Notes under the pieces: generated by a model
Seen by the model: the letters and a program-made list of their open reading frames with translations, nothing else
Databases searched by the model: none
Told to the model about the DNA's origin: nothing
Translations under genes and position numbers: made by a program
Shown here: positions 1,132 to 28,563 of the stretch, one piece after another
Layout: each line of letters opens with the position of its first letter
Position numbering within the stretch: position 1 is the first letter of the stretch
Source of the DNA: Fundidesulfovibrio agrisoli
GTDB taxonomy: Bacteria; Desulfobacterota; Desulfovibrionia; Desulfovibrionales; Desulfovibrionaceae
DNA: 33,056 nt
Assembly: GCF_022808715.1 (NCBI RefSeq)
Contig: NZ_JAKZKX010000033.1
Coordinates: forward strand, 1 to 33,056
Direction: 5' to 3'

Positions 1132-3783
1132 CTAGCTCTTGAGCGTCTCGATCCTGCCTTTCAGCTCTTCCAGCTTGGCCACCTTGCCGCGCAGCATCTC
1201 GTCCTTCTCGCGCTCCTTGGCCACCACCTCGGCGGGGGCCTTGGCGGTGAAGTCCTCGTTGGCCAGCTTGCGGGCCACGATCTCGGCTTCCTTGGCGGTC
1301 TTGGCCAGCTCCTTGTTCAGGCGGGCCAGCTCCGCGTCGAAGTCCACGGCTCCGGCCAGGGGCACGAACACGGCGTTGCCGCCCGCGGCCGCGCTGGCCG
1401 AGGCCTTGGGCGCGGTGACGTCCGGCCCGGCGGTGAAGCTGCCCAGGCGCGCCAGCAGCGTGATCAGGCGCTCGTTATCGCGCAGCATGGCCAGGTCGGC
1501 CGGATCGGCGGTGCGCACCAGGCAATCGAGCTTCAAGGCCGGGCTGATGGACAGCTCCGAGCGGATGTTGCGCACGCTGACCACCACCTCCTGCAGCAAG
1601 CTCATCATGGCCACGGCCTGGGGCTTCACGTGCTGGGGGCGGGCGGCGGGATAGGGCACCTTGGAGATGTCCTTCTGGGCGTGGCCGGGCAGGTGGCTCC
1701 AGATCTCCTGGGTGACGAAGGGCATGATGGGGTGCAAGAGCACCAGCAGCTCGGAGAGCACGGTCCACAGGCACTGCTGGGCCTGGGCCTTGGCGGCCTC
1801 GTCCTCGCCCGACAGGTCGGACTTGGCGGCCTCCAGGTACCAGTCGCAGAACTCCAGCCACAGGAAGGAGTAGAGCCCCTGGGCCGCCTCGTTGAAGCGG
1901 TAGTCCTGGATGGCGGCGCTGGTGGCCTGCTTCATCTCCTCCAGACGGTGGAGGATCCAGGCGTGATGCAGGGGCAGCTCGCCGTCCAGGGGGACGCCGG
2001 GAAGCTCCTGGGGCAGGTTCATCAGGCTGAAGCGGGCCGCGTTCCAGAGCTTGTTGACGAAGTGGCGGTAGCCCTCGATGCGCTCCTCGGAGAGCTTGAT
2101 GTCGCGCCCCATGGCCGCGAAGGCAGTGAGGGTGAAGCGCAGGGCGTCGGTGCCGAACTTGTCGATCATTATCAGGGGGTCGATGACGTTGCCCGTGGAC
2201 TTGGACATCTTCTTGCCCTCGGCGTCGCGCACCAGGGCGTGGATGTACACGTGCCTGAAGGGCACCTCGTCCATGAAGTGCAGGCCCATCATCATCATGC
2301 GGGCCACCCAGAAGAAGAGGATGTCGAAGGCCGTGACCAGCACCGAGGTGGGGTAGAAGGCCTTGAGCTCCGGGGTCTTGTCCGGCCAGCCCAGGGTGGA
2401 GAAGGGCCACAGCGCGGAGGAGAACCAGGTGTCGAGCACGTCCGGGTCCTGCTGGAGGGCGCCGCCGCAGTCGCAGGCGGCGGGGTCCTGCCGGGCCACG
2501 ATGAGCTTGCCGCAGGCCTGGCAGGTCCAGGCCGGGATGCGGTGGCCCCACCAGATCTGGCGGGAGATGCACCAGTCGCGGATGTTGTCGAGCCAGTGGT
2601 AGTAGGTGGTGGTCCACTGCTCGGGATAGATCTGGGTGCGCCCGGTCTCCACGGCGGCGCGGGCCACCTCGGCCAGGGGCCCGGCCTTGACGAACCACTG
2701 GGGCGAGACGTGGGGCTCCACAACGGTCTTGCAGCGGTAGCACTCGCCCACGGAGTGGTCGTGCTCCTCCACGGAGACGAGCAGGCCCTGCTCCTTCAAG
2801 TCCTCCACGACCTTCTTGCGGCAGGCCTCGCGGGAGAGACCCTGGTAGGCGGCTCCGGCGGCGGCGTTCATGTTCCCCTCGCCGTCCATGACCTGGAGGA
2901 TCTCCAGGTTGTGGCGGCGGCCCAGGTCGAAGTCGTTCATGTCGTGGGCGGGGGTGACTTTGAGCGCGCCCGTGCCGAACTCGCGGTCCACGTAGGCGTC
3001 GGCGATCACCGGGATCTCGCGGCCCACCAGGGGCAGCTTGACCATCTTGCCCACGAAGGCGGCGTAGCGCTCGTCCTCGGGGTGCACGGCCACGGCCGTG
3101 TCGCCGAGCAGCGTCTCGGGGCGGGTGGTGGCCACGATGAGCTCGCCCGAGCCGTCGGCCAGCACGTAGCGCAGCTGGTAGAGCGCGCCCTTCTTGGGGC
3201 TGTGCTCCACTTCCAGGTCCGCCAGGGCGGTCTGGCAGCGGGGGCACCAGTTGATGATGTAGTCGCCCTTGTAGATCAGGCCCTCTTCGTAGAGGCGCAC
3301 GAAAACCTCGCGCACCGCCTTGGAGAGGCCCTCGTCCATGGTGAAGCGCTCGCGGGTCCAGTCGACGCTGGCGCCCATGCGCCTGATCTGGTTGAGGATC
3401 TTGCCGCCGTATTCCTTGCGCCATTCCCAGACCCTCTCGATGAAGGCCTCGCGGCCCAGCTCGTGGCGGGAGGAGCCCTCCTTGGCCAGGGCGCGCTCCA
3501 CCACGTTCTGGGTGGCGATGCCCGCGTGGTCGGTGCCGGGCACCCAGAGCACCTTGCGGCCCAGCTGGCGCATGTGGCGGCAGAGGATGTCCTGCACGGT
3601 GAGGTTCAGGGCGTGGCCCATGTGCAGGGTGCCGGTGACGTTGGGCGGCGGGATGACTATGGAAAACGGGTCGCCATCGGCGTCGGGATCGGCGGTTCCG
3701 GCCCCGGACTCGGCCCAAAACGAAAGCCAGCGGGCTTCGACGTCGACAGGTTCGTAGCCCTTGGCCAGTGTGGTATCAGACAT
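1132..3783 (-). CDS. valS: Valyl-tRNA synthetase
   Basis: Class Ia aminoacyl-tRNA synthetase that charges tRNA-Val in the cytoplasm, with an editing domain that removes mischarged threonine. The 883-residue protein has the HIGH-type signature HMGH at 54-57 after PPNVTGT, and KMSKS near 525-529. Between them lies the editing insert (ATTRPETLLGDTAVAVHP). Cysteine pairs (CPRC, CYRC, CQAC, CDC) suggest zinc-binding knuckles. The C-terminus is a charged helical arm rich in A, E and K, typical of the ValS coiled coil. I chose the ATG at 3783 because AAGGAG lies 8 nt upstream; an in-frame start at 3813 would add ten unconserved-looking residues and lacks such a site. The gene stands alone, with its own promoter and terminator, divergent from the next gene. 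Confidence 0.98.
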   Translation of the reverse strand: MSDTTLAKGYEPVDVEARWLSFWAESGAGTADPDADGDPFSIVIPPPNVTGTLHMGHALNLTVQDILCRHMRQLGRKVLWVPGTDHAGIATQNVVERALAKEGSSRHELGREAFIERVWEWRKEYGGKILNQIRRMGASVDWTRERFTMDEGLSKAVREVFVRLYEEGLIYKGDYIINWCPRCQTALADLEVEHSPKKGALYQLRYVLADGSGELIVATTRPETLLGDTAVAVHPEDERYAAFVGKMVKLPLVGREIPVIADAYVDREFGTGALKVTPAHDMNDFDLGRRHNLEILQVMDGEGNMNAAAGAAYQGLSREACRKKVVEDLKEQGLLVSVEEHDHSVGECYRCKTVVEPHVSPQWFVKAGPLAEVARAAVETGRTQIYPEQWTTTYYHWLDNIRDWCISRQIWWGHRIPAWTCQACGKLIVARQDPAACDCGGALQQDPDVLDTWFSSALWPFSTLGWPDKTPELKAFYPTSVLVTAFDILFFWVARMMMMGLHFMDEVPFRHVYIHALVRDAEGKKMSKSTGNVIDPLIMIDKFGTDALRFTLTAFAAMGRDIKLSEERIEGYRHFVNKLWNAARFSLMNLPQELPGVPLDGELPLHHAWILHRLEEMKQATSAAIQDYRFNEAAQGLYSFLWLEFCDWYLEAAKSDLSGEDEAAKAQAQQCLWTVLSELLVLLHPIMPFVTQEIWSHLPGHAQKDISKVPYPAARPQHVKPQAVAMMSLLQEVVVSVRNIRSELSISPALKLDCLVRTADPADLAMLRDNERLITLLARLGSFTAGPDVTAPKASASAAAGGNAVFVPLAGAVDFDAELARLNKELAKTAKEAEIVARKLANEDFTAKAPAEVVAKEREKDEMLRGKVAKLEELKGRIETLKS

Positions 3784-16741: not shown

Positions 16742-16771
16742 GGCCCGTCGATGATAGGGGAACTGTCAGAC

Positions 16772-17038
16772 ATGGACAAGCACACCGAAAAGCTGCTGCG
16801 CACCATCCCCGGCATCGGCCCGGCCATGGCCCGCGACCTGTACAGCCTGGGCGTCCGCGCCCCGGAGGACCTTGCCGGGCGCGACCCGCAGCAGCTCTAC
16901 GACCAGCTCAGGGAGATGTCCGGCGGCAAGCTGGACCGCTGCGTGCTCTACGTGTTCCGCGAGGCGGTCTACTACGCCTCCACGCCGCCCGAAGGGCGCG
17001 ATCCCGAAAAACTCAAGTGGTGGAACTGGAAGGGCTAG
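16772..17038 (+). CDS. Helix-hairpin-helix protein, Cdd1 / pathogenicity-locus type
   Basis: An 88-residue protein starting with a helix-hairpin-helix: LLRTIPGIGPAMARDLYSLGVRAPEDLAGRDP, followed by LYDQL and a conserved DRCVLYVFREAVYYAS helix and a WWNW tail. This is the Cdd1 family pattern as I remember it; the fold suggests nucleic acid binding but no function is established. ATG 16772 is chosen because family-like sequence begins there; an in-frame ATG at 16751 is possible. It sits in a very tight space, 30 nt from divergent cbiA and 5 nt from the convergent end of the next gene. Probably cytoplasmic. Confidence 0.85.
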   Translation: MDKHTEKLLRTIPGIGPAMARDLYSLGVRAPEDLAGRDPQQLYDQLREMSGGKLDRCVLYVFREAVYYASTPPEGRDPEKLKWWNWKG

Positions 17039-17043
17039 TCCCC

Positions 17044-17631
17044 CTACCCCTTCAAATCCCGGAAGTTCCTGCGCACCTGCTCCAGCCGCTCCCGGTAGCC
17101 CTTGGCGTCGCCATACTCGAAGAAGAATCTGTAGCGGCTGTGCACGGCCTTCACGGGCCGGGCGTGGCGCACCGGGCACCAGAACTGCTCCGTCCTGGCG
17201 GCCACTTCGGCCACGTAGGCGATCACCCCGTTGAAATAGCTGCAGTAGGCGCAGTTCACCTTCTCGATCCAGTTCAGATACCGCAGGGCCTGGCGGTCCA
17301 TGACCACGTAGTCGCCCCGCTTCACGCGCGGGATGCCGTACACCGGGAAGCAGGCCAGCTGGTACAGGCTCACCACCACGTCCATGATCGCGCAGGGGAT
17401 CAGGGCCGACCAGATCACCGGGATGGTCAGGATCATCATCACGCCCGAGTCGTACACGTAGTCCGACCACTTGGCGGCCAGCTCCCGGTGGTAGGCCTCC
17501 ACATCCCTGGCGAAGCGGACCTTCTTGTTCCTGATGGTGTAGAGGAACTCGTTCTCGGTCTTGCGCAGCTCCCCCACGAGTTCCTTTTCCAGCTCCTCGA
17601 TGTTCTGAAGTATCTCGTCCACCCTGCTCAT
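17044..17631 (-). CDS. Uncharacterised membrane-anchored protein with Cys motifs
   Basis: The 195-residue protein has a charged helical N-terminus (about 1-55, probably coiled coil), one or two membrane helices (about 62-97), and a soluble C-terminal part with highly structured-looking motifs: YGIPRVKRGDYVVMDRQALRYLN, then CAYC at 127-130, SYFNG, and RTEQFWCPVRHA with Cys152 and His156. The Cys/His set could bind a metal or haem, but this is inference. The start at 17631 has gaggg 5 nt upstream. I recall similar conserved hypothetical proteins in proteobacteria but cannot name the family. The 205 nt upstream hold the wrbA terminator. Confidence 0.8.
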   Translation of the reverse strand: MSRVDEILQNIEELEKELVGELRKTENEFLYTIRNKKVRFARDVEAYHRELAAKWSDYVYDSGVMMILTIPVIWSALIPCAIMDVVVSLYQLACFPVYGIPRVKRGDYVVMDRQALRYLNWIEKVNCAYCSYFNGVIAYVAEVAARTEQFWCPVRHARPVKAVHSRYRFFFEYGDAKGYRERLEQVRRNFRDLKG

Positions 17632-17731
17632 GGTGCCCTCGCTGTGTTGCCGGTTGCGGGGATGCCTCCCCCTTGACGCCACGATTAGCACTGCGCGGCT
17701 GAAACCGCAGCGATTTCCTGCGGGTACGCGC

Positions 17732-17772
17732 AAAAAGGCCGGGAGCCCGGACAACTCGTCCGGGCTCCCGGC
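17732..17772 (-). terminator. Intrinsic terminator of wrbA
   Basis: A perfect 14-bp stem (17738-17751 with 17759-17772, 7-nt loop) is followed on the minus strand by five T residues. It begins 64 nt after the wrbA stop codon. Confidence 0.9.
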
Positions 17773-17836
17773 TCCCAATCGCGCCTCCAACCCGGAACCG
17801 CGCAAAAAACCGGGCCGGCGGCGCGTTCACGGGCTC

Positions 17837-18516: not shown

Positions 18517-18545
18517 TTGACTGGCGCGATGCCCCGGCGTAGAGC
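18517..18545 (+). promoter_or_regulatory. Putative sigma-70 promoter for the riboswitch-kup transcript
   Basis: TTGACT at 18517-18522 and TAGAGC at 18540-18545 are spaced by exactly 17 nt. Transcription would start around 18552, just before the first conserved riboswitch segment, which supports the assignment. The -10 is a weak match. Confidence 0.5.
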
Positions 18546-18549
18546 GCGT

Positions 18550-18780
18550 GTACGCATCGCCGAATCCCGCCCGGGCGGGAGCGGGGGAACCACCCAACGG
18601 GGCGCATCGCCGCGTGTGTCGCGTCCATGAAAACCATGTCCATGTTTTTCATGGAACAATAATAATTATAAATTATTATCCTCAAAAATCATACTCACTG
18701 TCTTTTGAGGGCGTCACGCAAGGCGTAGGGCAACCTTTCGGCCCGAGCCCGTCAGCTAACCTCGCAGGCGTCGAAGGGGC
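18550..18780 (+). ncRNA. ydaO/yuaA-type riboswitch (c-di-AMP) upstream of kup
   Basis: The leader of kup contains the conserved blocks of the ydaO class in order: CGCCGAATCC (18558-18567), GAGCGGGGGAACCA (18580-18593), GGGGCGCAUC (about 18599-18608, matching the GGGGUGAAU block), then GTAGGGCAAC (18726-18735) and the hallmark CCGTCAGCTAACCTCG (18749-18764). The closing P1 helix pairs CGCC 18558-18561 with GGCG 18767-18770. Riboswitches of this class bind cyclic di-AMP and commonly switch off K+ transporter and cell wall genes. Between the two halves lies an AT-rich insert with two hairpins (18625-18654 and 18680-18710) and an AT palindrome. Assignment is from motif recognition; ligand binding is inferred from the class. 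Confidence 0.93.
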
Positions 18781-18789
18781 TTCCGTGCA

Positions 18790-18822
18790 TTGCGGGGCCT
18801 CCCCCCGCAACCTCAACCGGAG
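18790..18822 (+). promoter_or_regulatory. Hairpin and ribosome site, probable expression platform of the riboswitch
   Basis: A perfect 8-bp stem (18790-18797 with 18803-18810, 5-nt loop) lies between the aptamer and the ggag at 18819-18822 that serves the kup ATG. There is no U-tract after the stem, so control of translation is more likely than classic termination. This is inference. Confidence 0.5.
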
Positions 18823-18830
18823 TCACGCGC

Positions 18831-20747
18831 ATGCGTTCCTGCTCCTTGCCGGCAGAGGACGGCCCCCACCACGGGGCCGCCTGCACGCCGGCACAGAAAG
18901 CCTCGCTGGCCTTGGCCGCCCTCGGCATCGTCTACGGCGACATCGGCACAAGCCCCCTCTACACCATCCAGGAGTGCTTCCACGGCCTCCACGCCATGCC
19001 CGTGACCCAACAGAACGTCCTGGGCGTGCTCTCCATGGTCTTCTGGTCCCTGATGATCGTGGTCAGCCTCAAGTACGTGGTCTTCATCCTGCGCGCCGAC
19101 AACAAGGGCGAGGGCGGCATCTTCGCCCTGCTGGCCATGTTGCGCGGCGGCCCGGCGAGCAAGGGCAAACACTGGCCCCTGATGCTGCTCATGGCCGCCT
19201 TCGGCGCGGCCCTGCTCTACGGCGACGGCGTCATCACCCCGGCCATCTCCGTGCTCTCGGCCGTGGAGGGCCTGAACGTGGCCACCAAGGCCGCCGCCAA
19301 TTTCGTGGTGCCCATCACCTGCGGCATCCTCGTCACCCTGTTCATGTTCCAGAAGCACGGCACCGCGGCCATCGGCAACGTGTTCGGCCCGGTCATGGTG
19401 GTCTGGTTCCTGGTGATCGGCGGGCTGGGCCTGCACTCCATACTCATGGCCCCCGGCATCCTCTACGCCCTCAACCCGGCCCACGCCGTGGAGTTCTTCG
19501 CCGCCAACGGCTTCCACGGCACCCTGGCCCTTGGCTCCGTGGTGCTGTGCATCACCGGCGGCGAGGCCCTCTACGCCGACATGGGCCACTTCGGCCGCAC
19601 GCCCATCCGGCTCTCCTGGTACATAATCGTCCTGCCGGGGCTGCTGCTGAACTACTTCGGCCAGGGGGCGCTCCTGCTGCGCAGCCCGGAGGCGGCCTTC
19701 AACCCGTTCTACTCCCTGGTGCCCGAGGCCGTGCTCTACCCCATGGTGGCCCTGTCCACGGCCGCGACGATCATCGCCTCCCAGGCCATGATCTCGGGCG
19801 TGTACTCCCTGACGCAACAGGCCATCCACCTGGGCTTCACCCCGCGCATGCTCATCGTGCACACCTCGCACAAGGCCATCGGCCAGATCTACATGCCGAG
19901 CGTCAACTGGGCGCTCATGCTGGCCTGCCTGACCCTGGTGCTCACCTTCGGGGAGTCCAGCCGCCTGGCCGGGGCCTACGGCATCGCCGTGACCGCCACC
20001 ATGGCCATCACCTCGGTGCTCTACTTCGAGGTGACCCGCGTGAACTGGGGCTGGTCCCTGTGGAAGAGCCTGCCCCTGCTGGTGCTCTTCCTGGCCTTCG
20101 ACTGCTCCTTCCTGGGCGCGAACCTGCTCAAGGTGGTGGACGGCGGCTGGATCACCCTCTCCATCGCCGTGGCCCTGCTGACCCTGATGGTCACCTGGCG
20201 CGACGGGCGCGCCCTGCTGGCCCGCCACTACAGCAACATGCGCATGCCCCTGGACATCTTCCTCAAGGACATGGCCGACTACAAGCCGCTGCGCACCTCG
20301 GGCACGGCGGTGTTCATGTCCATCTCGCCCGAGGGCGTGCCTCACACCCTGCTGCACCACTTCAAGCACAACGAGGCCCTGCACGAGCGCGTGGTGCTGC
20401 TCTCCATCACCTACGCCGAGGTGCCCCAGGTGCCGCCCGCGGAACGCCTGGACATCGCGGACCTGGGCCAGGGATTCCACCGCATCGTGGCGCGCTACGG
20501 CTTCATGGAGTCGCCCCAGGTGCCCGAAATCCTGGAGCTGGCCACCGAAAAGGGCCTGCCCATGGACGTCTACTCCACCTCGTTCTTCCTGGGGCGCGAG
20601 ACGCTGCTGACCACCGGGGACTCCCGCATGGCCAACTGGCGCAAGGTGCTGTTCGCCTTCATGTCGCGCAACTCCTGGAACGCCACGTCGTTCTTCAACA
20701 TTCCGCCGGGGCGCGTGGTGGAGCTGGGCAACCAGGTGGAGTTGTAA
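18831..20747 (+). CDS. kup: Kup/HAK/KUP-type potassium uptake protein
   Basis: Inner-membrane K+ (H+-coupled) importer. The 638-residue protein has the signature GIVYGDIGTSPLYT at 32-45, followed by about twelve membrane helices (for example MVFWSLMIVVSLKYVVFIL, LLYGDGVITPAISVLSAVEGL, ITGGEALYADMGHFG) and a cytoplasmic C-terminal domain of about 170 residues with family features such as RVVLLSITYAEVPQV and FHRIVARYGFMESP. ATG 18831 has ggag 8 nt upstream. Expression is placed under the c-di-AMP-type riboswitch, which fits the general rule that this messenger restrains K+ import. A two-hairpin repeat and a strong terminator follow. Confidence 0.97.
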   Translation: MRSCSLPAEDGPHHGAACTPAQKASLALAALGIVYGDIGTSPLYTIQECFHGLHAMPVTQQNVLGVLSMVFWSLMIVVSLKYVVFILRADNKGEGGIFALLAMLRGGPASKGKHWPLMLLMAAFGAALLYGDGVITPAISVLSAVEGLNVATKAAANFVVPITCGILVTLFMFQKHGTAAIGNVFGPVMVVWFLVIGGLGLHSILMAPGILYALNPAHAVEFFAANGFHGTLALGSVVLCITGGEALYADMGHFGRTPIRLSWYIIVLPGLLLNYFGQGALLLRSPEAAFNPFYSLVPEAVLYPMVALSTAATIIASQAMISGVYSLTQQAIHLGFTPRMLIVHTSHKAIGQIYMPSVNWALMLACLTLVLTFGESSRLAGAYGIAVTATMAITSVLYFEVTRVNWGWSLWKSLPLLVLFLAFDCSFLGANLLKVVDGGWITLSIAVALLTLMVTWRDGRALLARHYSNMRMPLDIFLKDMADYKPLRTSGTAVFMSISPEGVPHTLLHHFKHNEALHERVVLLSITYAEVPQVPPAERLDIADLGQGFHRIVARYGFMESPQVPEILELATEKGLPMDVYSTSFFLGRETLLTTGDSRMANWRKVLFAFMSRNSWNATSFFNIPPGRVVELGNQVEL

Positions 20748-24743: not shown

Positions 24744-27700
24744 TCAAGGGGTTCGTTCCTTGCGCCGCCCGCGCAGCCCGGTCCAGGTGACCCAGGTGGC
24801 CCAGGCCGCCAGCGCCAGGCAGGCCGACCCGGCCAGCGCCCAGACCGCCAGGGTGATCCGGTCGCCCAGGGAGCGCAGGCGCTGCGGCGTGTAGAACACA
24901 TCCACAGGCCCCTGCCAGCCGGGTGAATCCGGCGAAGCGACGTAGGCGTTCATGAACCCGTAGGCCTTGAGGGGCGCACGCCCGTCCGCCCGCCAGTTCG
25001 GGTTGTGGCTCTCGGAGAAGAGCAGCACCCGCCCGGAGCCGGAGGGAACGACGGCCTTGTAATGCGCCTGGTCCACGCGCTCCAGGGCCACGGGCGGCGT
25101 GGGCTCGGGGCGCTCGTCAGGCCCCTGGCGCAGGGCGATCAGGTCGCAGGCCTCGGAAGGCGAGCCCAGCACGGCCAGGCGCGCGGGCGCGTCCGGCCCG
25201 GCCTCCACCGCGCCGAGATCGCGCCATTGCGGGCCTTCAGGCCCGAGAATGTGCGCGCTGGCGCTGTACAGCCCGGCGCGCGGGGCCGGGGCCTCAAAGG
25301 AAGCAGGCAGGGCCACGCCCTGGCCCATGCAGGCCGGGCCCACCGGGTTTTGGGCCTTGAGGCGCAGGCGCATGGGCGTGTTGGGCGTGTTGGCCAGGGA
25401 GTGCAGCTGGGCCTGGCGCATGGACACGCGGATGCGCACCGTGCGGCAGGCGGCCTGCACGTCGGAGCGCATGCGGCGGCCGTAGACGTCCTCCCAAGAG
25501 TTGCCCGTGCCTCCGGCCAGCTCGAACAGGGGGCGGAAGGGGCCGCCGTCCACGGCCCACTCGGCCCGAACGAAGGAGACGCCCGCCGGGTCGCCGAAAA
25601 GGCGCGGGTAGCACTCCAGCTCAAACCCGGAGGCGGCCCGGGGCAGCTCCACTGTGAACTCGGCCACGCCGACGTCCGGGCCTTCGGCGGCCAGCATGCC
25701 CGCGCCAGCGCCGTCCACGGACTCGGAGCGAAGATTTTCGGTCGTGAGAGTTATGCCGGGCAGTTCGGCCAAGAGGGGCTCGTCCCAGGAGTCGGCCGCC
25801 AGGCGCGAACCGGGCAGCGCGCAGGACGCGGCCCCGGAGAGGGCCAGCGCGCCTCGTTCGGGCGGGAAGGCGGCGTCCATGGCGGCGCGCGCGGCGGCCA
25901 GATCGGCCTCGGGCGCGGCCAGAACCCCTGCGACCACGGCCCCGCGCCCCGGAGCCTCGAACACCAGGACGCCGCCGGAAGCGGGGGCGAGGCCCAGGTC
26001 GACCCAGCGCCAGCCCCTGTCCAGCAGATCGGGCCTGTCCGCCGGGCGCAGTTCGCGGCCGCCCAGGCTGGCGGAAGGCCCCCACTGCCCGGGCACGGCG
26101 GCCACCCGGGCCAGCAGGCGAAGGTTTTCCCCCTTGGGCAGGGGCACTTCCAGGCGGGCCGGACCGTCGCTCACCAGGGCGGCCCCGTTGAGGGGCGAGC
26201 CCTCGAACCAGATGTGCCTGTCCCAGCGTTCGGCCAGGGAGGCCCAGCCTGAAGGCATGGCCCGTCCGGTCGGCGCGGCGGCGATCCAGGTGCCCGCCGG
26301 CAGCCAGGGCAGCAGCAGCTCCGGCCAGGAGCCGCCCCAGGAGCGCAGGCCGCCCGTGGCCTCGCCCAGGGCGGACAGGGTTTCTCCCTCGGCGTCGGTG
26401 CCGAAAACCTGGGCCTCGGCGGCGAAGAGGTCCCCGGGCAACTCGGCCAGCCCCGCCAGCAGGGGCGCGCCACCGGAGGCCAGGGCCAGGGTGCGGGCCG
26501 TGCGCAGGCGCGGCAGGTACCCGGCGTTGTCCAGCACCGTGAACGGGCCGCAGCTCCACTTCGCGTCCGGGCGCAGGTCGCGCTGGGCCGCCAGGAAGCG
26601 CGGCAGGCTGTCGCCGGGGTCGGCCAGGGTTTCGGAGCCGCGCTTCACCCGGGGCATCCAGCCGAAATCGGAATAGCTGAGCGCGGGCACGGCCGCGTCG
26701 TAGACCACGCGGCGCACCGCGCCCAGGCCCAGCAGCCGCCCGAAGGCGTCGGTGAGCGGCCCGGGCCGGTTGAGCATGGAGAGCAGGAACCGCCCGAAGG
26801 GCTGGCCCACGAAGGTGGGGCCGAGCAGGCTGTCCTTGCCCAGAAGGCCGAAATTGCGGGTGAGCGAGGTGGCGGGGGGCGCGGGCACGTCGCCGGTTGG
26901 CCCGGCCACGGTGGGCAGCACCGTGATGCGGTAGAAGCCCGGATCGTCGTGGAGCGCCTTGACCAGCTCGCGCTCCTCCTCCGGCAGGGGCTGGAGCATG
27001 AGCGACATGGTCTGGGTGGTGGCGTTGCGCGGCACGGTGAGCGCCCCGCTCCACCAGGGCCAGAGGTAGACCCCGGCGGCCGTGGCGGCCAGCAGCCCGG
27101 CCATGACGCCGGGCCAGCGGTAGTCCTTCCAGAAGGAGCGGCGGCGCACCGCCTCCAGCCCAAGGCCCACCATCAGCGCCAGCCCCGCCTGGTAGAGCGG
27201 CAGCCAGCGCATGGGCCGGGCCATGAGGAAGAAGACCATCTGCACCCGGGCCAGCAGCCCTTCATAGAGGATGCGGCCGGGCATGGTCTGCGCCCCGGAG
27301 AGCATCCAGAACCCGCCCAGCAGGCACAGCCCACCGAACCACTTGAGCGAGCGCGGCGCAACCGGGGCCAGGAGCCCCAGCAGGGCCAGGCCCAGCAGGG
27401 CGAAGGCCGAGACGATCCAGGGCTCGCGGAAGGGGCCCTCCACGGGGTAGGCCTGCTCCGTGCCCATGCCCAGGTTGTCGGTGTGGCCGATCATGGCCTG
27501 GCGGGGCGGTGCGGAGAAGTCCTTATAGAGATGGAGGTAGTGGGCGCGCACGTCCTCCATGCGCTGGTTGTACTTGGCCCCGGCCGAGCCCGTGGCGGCG
27601 GCGGGCAGCAGCCAGTGGGCCTGGGCCCCGAGCACCACGCACCCGGCCACGGCCAGCACGGCCAGGGGCCGGGCCCCGCGCGCCGCGATCACGGCGGCCA

Positions 27701-28397
27701 CGCCCCAGACCAGCAGGAAGGCTGCCGTGAGCACGATGCCCATGGGCGAGGCCGAGAATCCCAGCGCACCGGCCAGGCCGCAGCCCAGGGCCCAGGCTAA
27801 GAAGGCCGCGCCCCGCGCGGAGGCGGCCCTGTCAGCGAAATAGACGGTCCAGGGGGCCAGGGCCAGGGCGAAGCCGATCTCGAAGCCGTGGCCCGAGACG
27901 GCCATGGTGTAGGTGCGAGGGTTGAACTGGCTGAGCAGGCAGACCGCCAGGCTCGGCCCGAACCCCAGCCCCAGCCTGCGGCAGAGCAGCCAGTACCCTG
28001 CCGCGCCCGGCAGGGCGTAGAACAGGAAGTGCCAGCGGGCCAGGGCCGCCCCGCCCAGGAAGGCCAGCCCATTGCGCATCAGGGCGTCGAAGGCCCAGTC
28101 GATGCCGTTGAAGGTGGCCGGGGAGCCGAGCTCGAATATGGAGGACCAGGCGTCGCTGGAGATGGAGCCGTAGGCTTCAATCTGAGATGGATAGGGCGGG
28201 ATGGTCTGGTCCCAGTTCTGGTAGATGTGACCGGGTTCGAAGAGCACCCCCCGGTAGGATACCGCGAACAGGGCGGCCACCAGGCAGCAGGCCGCGAGCA
28301 GGCACCATGGCGAGCCGGGGGAGAAAGCCGGGCCTGAAACAGGGCTAGCACCTGGGGGGGTGCCCTGGGCGGAGCTGTTCGGGGAACTTGGGCGCAT
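24744..28397 (-). CDS. Very large membrane protein, GT-C / AftD- or YfhO-like architecture
   Basis: About 1217 residues. After a short cytosolic tail the first helix is WCLLAACCLVAALFAVSYRG. An extracytoplasmic loop with NWDQTIPPYPSQIEAYGSISSDAWSS follows, where acidic residues could be catalytic as in GT-C enzymes, then roughly ten more helices up to about residue 450. Residues about 455-1165 are soluble and probably periplasmic, including beta-rich segments that may bind carbohydrate. One last helix (LAVWALAGSACLALAAWATWV) precedes a basic tail. This layout resembles arabinofuranosyltransferase AftD and YfhO-type proteins; the exact family is not certain. The ATG at 28397 is used; an in-frame GTG at 28406 is also possible. 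Two glycosyltransferases downstream suggest a shared surface glycan role. Confidence 0.8.
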   Translation of the reverse strand: MRPSSPNSSAQGTPPGASPVSGPAFSPGSPWCLLAACCLVAALFAVSYRGVLFEPGHIYQNWDQTIPPYPSQIEAYGSISSDAWSSIFELGSPATFNGIDWAFDALMRNGLAFLGGAALARWHFLFYALPGAAGYWLLCRRLGLGFGPSLAVCLLSQFNPRTYTMAVSGHGFEIGFALALAPWTVYFADRAASARGAAFLAWALGCGLAGALGFSASPMGIVLTAAFLLVWGVAAVIAARGARPLAVLAVAGCVVLGAQAHWLLPAAATGSAGAKYNQRMEDVRAHYLHLYKDFSAPPRQAMIGHTDNLGMGTEQAYPVEGPFREPWIVSAFALLGLALLGLLAPVAPRSLKWFGGLCLLGGFWMLSGAQTMPGRILYEGLLARVQMVFFLMARPMRWLPLYQAGLALMVGLGLEAVRRRSFWKDYRWPGVMAGLLAATAAGVYLWPWWSGALTVPRNATTQTMSLMLQPLPEEERELVKALHDDPGFYRITVLPTVAGPTGDVPAPPATSLTRNFGLLGKDSLLGPTFVGQPFGRFLLSMLNRPGPLTDAFGRLLGLGAVRRVVYDAAVPALSYSDFGWMPRVKRGSETLADPGDSLPRFLAAQRDLRPDAKWSCGPFTVLDNAGYLPRLRTARTLALASGGAPLLAGLAELPGDLFAAEAQVFGTDAEGETLSALGEATGGLRSWGGSWPELLLPWLPAGTWIAAAPTGRAMPSGWASLAERWDRHIWFEGSPLNGAALVSDGPARLEVPLPKGENLRLLARVAAVPGQWGPSASLGGRELRPADRPDLLDRGWRWVDLGLAPASGGVLVFEAPGRGAVVAGVLAAPEADLAAARAAMDAAFPPERGALALSGAASCALPGSRLAADSWDEPLLAELPGITLTTENLRSESVDGAGAGMLAAEGPDVGVAEFTVELPRAASGFELECYPRLFGDPAGVSFVRAEWAVDGGPFRPLFELAGGTGNSWEDVYGRRMRSDVQAACRTVRIRVSMRQAQLHSLANTPNTPMRLRLKAQNPVGPACMGQGVALPASFEAPAPRAGLYSASAHILGPEGPQWRDLGAVEAGPDAPARLAVLGSPSEACDLIALRQGPDERPEPTPPVALERVDQAHYKAVVPSGSGRVLLFSESHNPNWRADGRAPLKAYGFMNAYVASPDSPGWQGPVDVFYTPQRLRSLGDRITLAVWALAGSACLALAAWATWVTWTGLRGRRKERTP

Positions 28398-28563
28398 GCG
28401 TGTCACGCCGGGTCAGTGCCACGCCCTGGAGGATTTGAAAAGGGCCGCGAGCAGCCCAATCCCTTGTGCGGCCCCGCGTGGTTTCCCGATTTTCTTTTTG
28501 CCTGAGCTGGGGTATCCAGGCAGGACGGCGGGCGTTTCCCGGACGGCTTCGGATCGGAGCGGC

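Follow-up and report, generated by a model that had tools for sequence, protein, structure and literature searches.

Riboswitch aptamers often carry long folded insertions, the origin of which is usually not known. Such variable insertions are described in PMC2258182 as long, nonconserved, and self-folding and as sitting at tolerant places. Bacterial MITEs such as Correia, RUP, and ERIC, as described in a review (PMC10969869), are short and noncoding, have terminal inverted repeats, occur in many copies, are flanked by a short target duplication, and give folded transcripts. The same review raises riboswitches as a possibility and cites the case of the BOX element, which is located between a pair of T-box riboswitches in the trp operon of pneumococcus (PMC3049150); there, a small mobile repeat sits in a riboswitch leader whose components are expected to fold independently. 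Bacillus subtilis KimA, formerly YdaO, is under the control of a c-di-AMP riboswitch (PMC7288161).

The locus that we describe here appears to be a riboswitch of standard type whose variable insertion is a mobile element, and this element belongs to a family for which we found no description. The element family shares the MITE features listed above but differs from Correia, RUP, and ERIC, as described there, in having CTAG ends, a length near 110 bp, and three internal hairpins with compensatory changes. Whereas BOX lies between two riboswitches in the text cited, this element lies inside one aptamer, and unlike the variable insertions covered in PMC2258182, it has a source that can be named and boundaries that are known. 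A literature search that covered subscription journals thinly, and is weak evidence to that extent, turned up neither a case in which one aptamer contains a MITE nor a description of an ~110-bp CTAG element family.

The window, which is the whole stretch of DNA that was analyzed, comprises 33,056 nucleotides of Fundidesulfovibrio agrisoli (contig NZ_JAKZKX010000033.1, positions 1 to 33,056, forward strand). Its features at the locus are as follows.

18517 to 18545, plus strand: putative promoter, TTGACT (18517 to 18522), 17 nt, TAGAGC (18540 to 18545), from sequence reading
18548 to 18785, plus strand: c-di-AMP (ydaO/yuaA) riboswitch aptamer, interrupted by the element (RF00379, 77.9 bits)
18608 to 18612, plus strand: 5′ side of the host stem (CGCC) plus the first base of the loop, immediately ahead of the element (RF00379 alignment, fold)
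18613 to 18722, plus strand: full-length MITE-like element, 110 nt (held-out model R2, 79.5 bits, E = 4.5e-20, positions 1 to 111 of 111)
18624 to 18655, plus strand: element hairpin 1 (fold; compensatory changes among copies)
18659 to 18679, plus strand: element hairpin 2, an AT-rich palindrome and the weakest conserved of the three (fold; 77.2% of cells paired, 70.3% without the window and sister copies)
18680 to 18710, plus strand: element hairpin 3, with 8 outer pairs (fold; compensatory changes among copies)
18722 to 18725, plus strand: 3′ side of the host stem (GGCG) (RF00379 alignment, fold)
18786 to 18830, plus strand: predicted expression platform, a segment that could pair with the Shine-Dalgarno sequence (UUCCG with CGGAG) around a GC hairpin without a U-tract (each of the remaining five genus kup leaders has a counterpart)
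18831 to 20747, plus strand: kup, K+ uptake transporter, 638 aa (PF02705, 623 bits; PF22776, 171 bits)

Elsewhere in the window, two minus-strand frames drew no domain match: one of 1,220 aa (24744 to 28406; Pfam) and one of 354 aa (16766 to 17830; Pfam and NCBIfam).

An Rfam 15 scan of the whole window gave RF00379 (c-di-AMP/ydaO) as the sole match above its gathering score (18548 to 18785, plus strand; 77.9 bits, E = 1.1e-16, gathering score 38). The match covers positions 1 to 134 of the 134-position model, the conserved aptamer residues are present in the alignment, and the extra sequence sits in the variable stem CGCC...GGCG. The leader lies ahead of a gene for K+ transport, the known c-di-AMP regulon, with kup beginning at 18831; the Kup protein passed the NCBIfam cutoff of TIGR00794 (581 bits; cutoff, 539.6) and missed that of NF008015 (728 bits; cutoff, 883). 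A second RF00379 copy in the same genome has no insert (100.9 bits, stem CGCC-GCAA-GGCG) and is followed by an APC-type permease (PF13520) that is putatively KimA-like. Among 34 family leaders (8 that the genus search supplied, counting the own genome, and 26 more taken from the 53 hits of the family search), the downstream gene was a Kup relative in 21 and a relative of the second-copy permease in 13. The c-di-AMP cyclase gene, DAC, was found in all seven genus genomes; in the own genome (PF02457, G000:C12:264187-264534, 129.4 bits), its frame contains what we take to be the DGA and RHR motifs.

A first-pass annotation made from the letters of the window had proposed a ydaO-type riboswitch ahead of kup, and this main identification stands, given the Rfam match, the Kup domain matches, the leader contexts across the family, and DAC in 7/7 genomes. 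The link that it drew between c-di-AMP and K+ import comes as no surprise, given 34 leaders that all precede a relative of Kup or of the second-copy permease and the distribution of DAC. A c-di-AMP riboswitch upstream of kup is supported. It has the conserved halves, the stems, and the K+-import gene context of known ydaO riboswitches and differs from them in its translational-looking platform and in the 110-nt mobile element within a variable peripheral stem. As a separate observation, the kup aptamer of another genus member, G001 (L007, 1501 to 1661), has about 27 extra nucleotides at a different place, between GGGGGAACC and GGGGCGCAT.

The extra segment, first put at about 115 nt, is real and spans 110 nt (18613 to 18722). 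Its GC content is 0.356 over 18618 to 18718, compared with 0.676 for the window, and the lowest-GC 100-mer of the window begins at 18615. Folded as RNA, positions 18612 to 18724 reach -37.5 kcal/mol, against -18.6 (standard deviation, 3.1) in 200 shuffles (z = -6.1), and folding of the insert as DNA gives the same z. These values agree with the earlier description of an AT-rich inserted segment in a GC-rich genome; the AT-rich palindrome lies at 18659 to 18679. The insert alone folds into a stem closed by its two ends plus three hairpins. Two of these had been called perfect; both do fold, but hairpin 1 contains a C-U mismatch; hairpin 3 has 8 outer pairs. The outermost bases are CGTG and CAAG where the family has CTAG and CTAG. 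G18722, the base that ends the element, is at the same time part of a host-stem pair. When 18600 to 18735 was scanned permissively against Rfam for other known RNAs, three chance-level matches came up (E = 1.6 to 2.6), far below gathering.

Comparison among related genomes, an approach suggested in the first-pass annotation, recovered both the same insert in a sister species and dispersed copies across the genus. Searched as DNA against the seven genus genomes, 18618 to 18718 recovered the insert in the sister, G003, at 96% identity, along with partial matches elsewhere, such as those in G002 (82%, 70 nt), G004 (79%, 74 nt), and G006 (83%, 50 nt), and many further short matches to hairpin 1. 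Dispersed elements at the matched places end in CTAGTGTsGCGTCC...GGACGCsACACTAG; at least 18 end pairs span 44 to 112 bp, many of them 109 to 112 bp, except that a single pairing, which reuses an end of a different pair, measures 182 bp. One subfamily keeps the hairpin order of the window insert, with some copies folding into fewer hairpins, and the window insert aligns end to end with ten family copies, four of which are internally shorter. A second subfamily (L045, L055, L053, L066, and L069) has the same ends and a different interior with one strong hairpin.

A covariance model (R2) built from the ten other copies, with the window and G003 copies left out, finds the window insert over positions 1 to 111 at 79.5 bits (E = 4.5e-20, a rough value given the short calibration) and scores the G003 insert at 84.4 bits; it had no match in six other leaders. 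Across 12 aligned copies, 89.3% of 441 cells are paired as the 41-pair structure requires, both sides have changed in 10 pairs, and the terminal inverted repeats pair over 11 positions (90.9% of cells). Covariation was 0.171, compared with 0.113 in shuffled alignments (0 of 500 as high) and 0.038 to 0.065 in slid controls, and it was 0.149 against 0.104 (0 of 500) once the copies of the window and G003 were removed. The number of pair types lends no support, because shuffles reached it in 134 of 500 cases with 12 copies and 249 of 500 without those two. Because the copies are related, none of these shuffle results is a probability.

Beyond the genus, a model that includes the window copy (R1) matched in at least 37 of 288 family genomes and at least 9 of 44 genera. 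There were up to at least 13 matches per genome, where no more than 13 candidates were scored in each and some places were counted on both strands. The 16 loci of other genera that were scored among L164 to L181 all matched R1 over positions 1 to 111, as expected because R1 had selected them, and their ends are readable in the sequence; this scoring excluded L170, which comes from the own genus, and L176, which is offset where its contig ends. Forty other loci of about 3 kb each, holding a copy or a single end-like match, contained no Rfam match that would place the element in another structured RNA.

Thirty-one copies (L011 to L013, L016 to L018, L048, L053, L060, L063, L065, L066, L069, L070, L164 to L175, and L177 to L181) showed a tendency to lie toward gene 3′ ends: at 29 of 62 ends, the TAG within CTAG falls in frame behind an open frame of 100 codons or more. 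Long open frames are frequent by chance in GC-rich DNA, so this tendency is only suggestive. Copies also lie about 2.3 kb from the DAC gene in two species (G004:C10:35357-35466 and G002:C2:387981-388041), probably by chance.

Past mobility of the family is supported by sequence comparison at an 84-bp copy in the sister species (L048), whose flanks were compared across the genus. In the own genome this site is empty, and the flanks meet over a single CTAG (G000:C14:2894-3296 and 3293-3696); the filled site reads CTAG-element-CTAG, so the duplication is CTAG or the TA inside it. The same place is also empty, and without CTAG, in G006, G002, and G005. For the window copy we infer the target duplication and empty site, because its outer bases have changed and none of the leaders compared offers a near-identical empty site.

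At 110 nt, the element is too small for a transposase gene, and searches across two transposase families and a subset of the genomes found no autonomous transposase with the same ends. As for a possible IS630/Tc1-mariner origin, the CTAG ends are compatible with duplication of either TA or CTAG, and IS630-type DDE_3 (PF13358) had a partial match in one of the seven genus genomes. DDE_Tnp_1 matched in 6 of 11 genomes, and 30 loci were scanned for element ends; at the three loci inspected closely (L234, L235, and L245), the end-like matches proved to be coding sequence. Facing end pairs at insertion sequence distance were sought by eye in four genomes; among the matches listed, which extend into G260 and include none from G268, one candidate was followed, a 1.1-kb stretch of G259.

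L189, 537 to 1646 (G259:C1:104034-105145): transposase gene inside an element copy, with the 8-bp direct repeat TTTCTTAA on either side

We take this gene to be IS1595-like. Its position within a copy of the element, with an 8-bp direct repeat on each side, led to its rejection as the partner.

The insertion site can be read from the uninterrupted leaders. Between GGGGyGnAT and GTAGGG, 21 of the 23 readable leaders have 11 to 15 nt (CGCCGCAAGGC in 11 of the 21), and the window and G003 have 117; the 23 are those among 34 that fit the simple pattern, the other 11 being uncounted. Subtracting the 110-nt element from 117 and adding back a four-base target gives 11, which places the element in the tetraloop. 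Among 111 distinct RF00379 hits (53 from the family and 64 from the phylum), a length of 238 nt occurs only in the window and G003, and the next longest are 161 nt (G001) and 160 nt (G564). The insert was thus carried by two species among the hits searched, where the stricter filters of the family and phylum searches lost some weak matches, so that further interrupted copies could be missed.

The first-pass annotation had offered two origins for the insert, an added regulatory module or a recent insertion. The former gives way to a copy of a mobile element, on the evidence of the held-out model, the dispersed copies, and the empty site. The latter holds as to insertion but not as to age, since the insert is common to a sister that differs at 50 of 387 fourfold kup sites and both CTAG ends have changed. 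A peripheral domain that grew in place, resembling the repeat merely through a shared palindromic, AT-rich character, would be in keeping with the commonness of stem-loop peripheral insertions in riboswitches (PMC2258182). We consider such growth highly improbable in the face of the exact element length, both ends, the hairpin order, the 79.5 bits from a model that excludes the window copy, and the gap in RF00379 lengths between 161 and 238 nt.

Whether the switch outlived the insertion is a distinct question. A killed or weakened switch would leave the leader as a decaying relic and Kup constitutive or low, and the window aptamer does score lower than the uninterrupted own-genome copy (77.9 against 100.9 bits), though a long insertion itself costs score. 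Yet among the 5 of 128 aptamer positions that differ between the window and G003, none lies in the conserved core: they fall at the 5′ end, in an apical loop, and in the host stem, where one C-G becomes U-G. The conserved residues are present, and the host stem is still predicted, at a mean probability of 0.77 when the element is in place and of 0.82 or 0.79 when a CAAG or a CTAG loop, respectively, replaces it. With 200 shuffled inserts the mean was 0.011 and none was as high as the element, and in the opposite orientation of the element the stem was lost. Pairing of the insert with the rest of the leader was 0.008 per base, compared with 0.124 for shuffled inserts; the host stem stays predicted because the element folds on itself. 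These foldings ignored pseudoknots, and the host-stem figures do not bear on formation of the aptamer core. On balance a killed or weakened switch seems improbable.

A further alternative is co-option. The element would then be a functional component of the switch, maintained by selection, and would delay the aptamer 3′ half, induce pausing or cleavage by RNase III, or bind a factor. The element differs from that of G003 at only 4 of 110 positions, where about 13 would be expected from the 152 of 1,304 fourfold sites that differ in five genes (one poorly aligned at one end; Poisson, about 0.004). None of the four differences breaks a pair: one restores pairing at the C-U mismatch of hairpin 1, another exchanges A-U for G-U, and the remaining two fall at unpaired positions. 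Correia is a known case of a MITE whose transcripts are cut by RNase III (PMC10969869). Such low divergence is not special to the window copy, however, since a further shared copy, which lies in no aptamer, has changed at 1 of 111 positions with flanks likewise little changed; AT-rich hairpin DNA may also mutate unlike GC-rich codons, and among the hits searched only two species have the insert. Co-option is conceivable, and we think it rather unlikely.

Downstream of the aptamer, the hairpin TTGCGGGG-CCTCC-CCCCGCAA has no U-tract, a reading of the earlier annotation that sequence inspection confirmed. By eye, a segment just 3′ of the aptamer is able to pair with the Shine-Dalgarno sequence in 6/6 kup leaders of the genus: CUCCGG/CCGGAG in G005 and G006, CCUCCG/CGGAGG in G001, UUCCG/CGGAG in the window and G003, and CCUCCUAA/UUAGGAGG in G002, where the helix is kept through changed bases. 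Computed folds pair the Shine-Dalgarno sequence in five of the six, with G002 by eye only. The segment in 6/6 leaders and the missing U-tract point to translational repression upon c-di-AMP binding, in line with the translational control proposed earlier, and an OFF switch of this kind is the likely mode of kup control predicted from sequence. An alternative pairing for the ligand-free state was not found for the kup leader.

At the upstream end, the 17-nt-spaced promoter noted previously has readable hexamers, and GTTGAC occurs at the matching place in four kup leaders compared; its second hexamer is weak, however, and a consensus scan did not include the TTGACT-TAGAGC pair among its sites. 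The same scan gave two minus-strand sites within the insert and none on the plus strand.

Taken as a whole, we consider it probable that this is a c-di-AMP riboswitch on kup with a MITE-like insertion that predates the sister split, a self-folding element, and a retained aptamer; the aptamer, the element, its exact site, and the past mobility of the family are the parts of this account that the sequence itself shows. A 110-bp nonautonomous MITE-like element with a CTAG target would have entered the variable peripheral stem before the split, at an apical tetraloop with an ancestral form of about CGCC-GC[A/T]A-GGCG. Given its inverted-repeat ends and its interior of three hairpins, the element transcript would fold by itself into a closed four-way junction atop the stem and leave the two conserved aptamer halves able to meet. 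We infer that the aptamer still binds c-di-AMP. Binding would favor the helix over the kup Shine-Dalgarno sequence, and Kup synthesis would fall at high c-di-AMP (high K+).

Most likely, the element is a neutral, self-contained knob on a peripheral helix, and it may influence timing or cleavage by RNase. More speculatively, a self-folding family of this kind may be harmless to structured RNA, may here have become a fixed riboswitch domain that alters the timing or stability of kup control, and may perhaps be a general source of long riboswitch insertions. For this locus the origin of the insertion can be named, with its family, boundaries, and site identified in an aptamer otherwise without sign of decay, and it may represent one natural route by which riboswitches can gain extra domains. 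The same aptamer with and without the element, together with the uninterrupted copy in the same genome, would allow a direct test of mobile DNA adding RNA domains.
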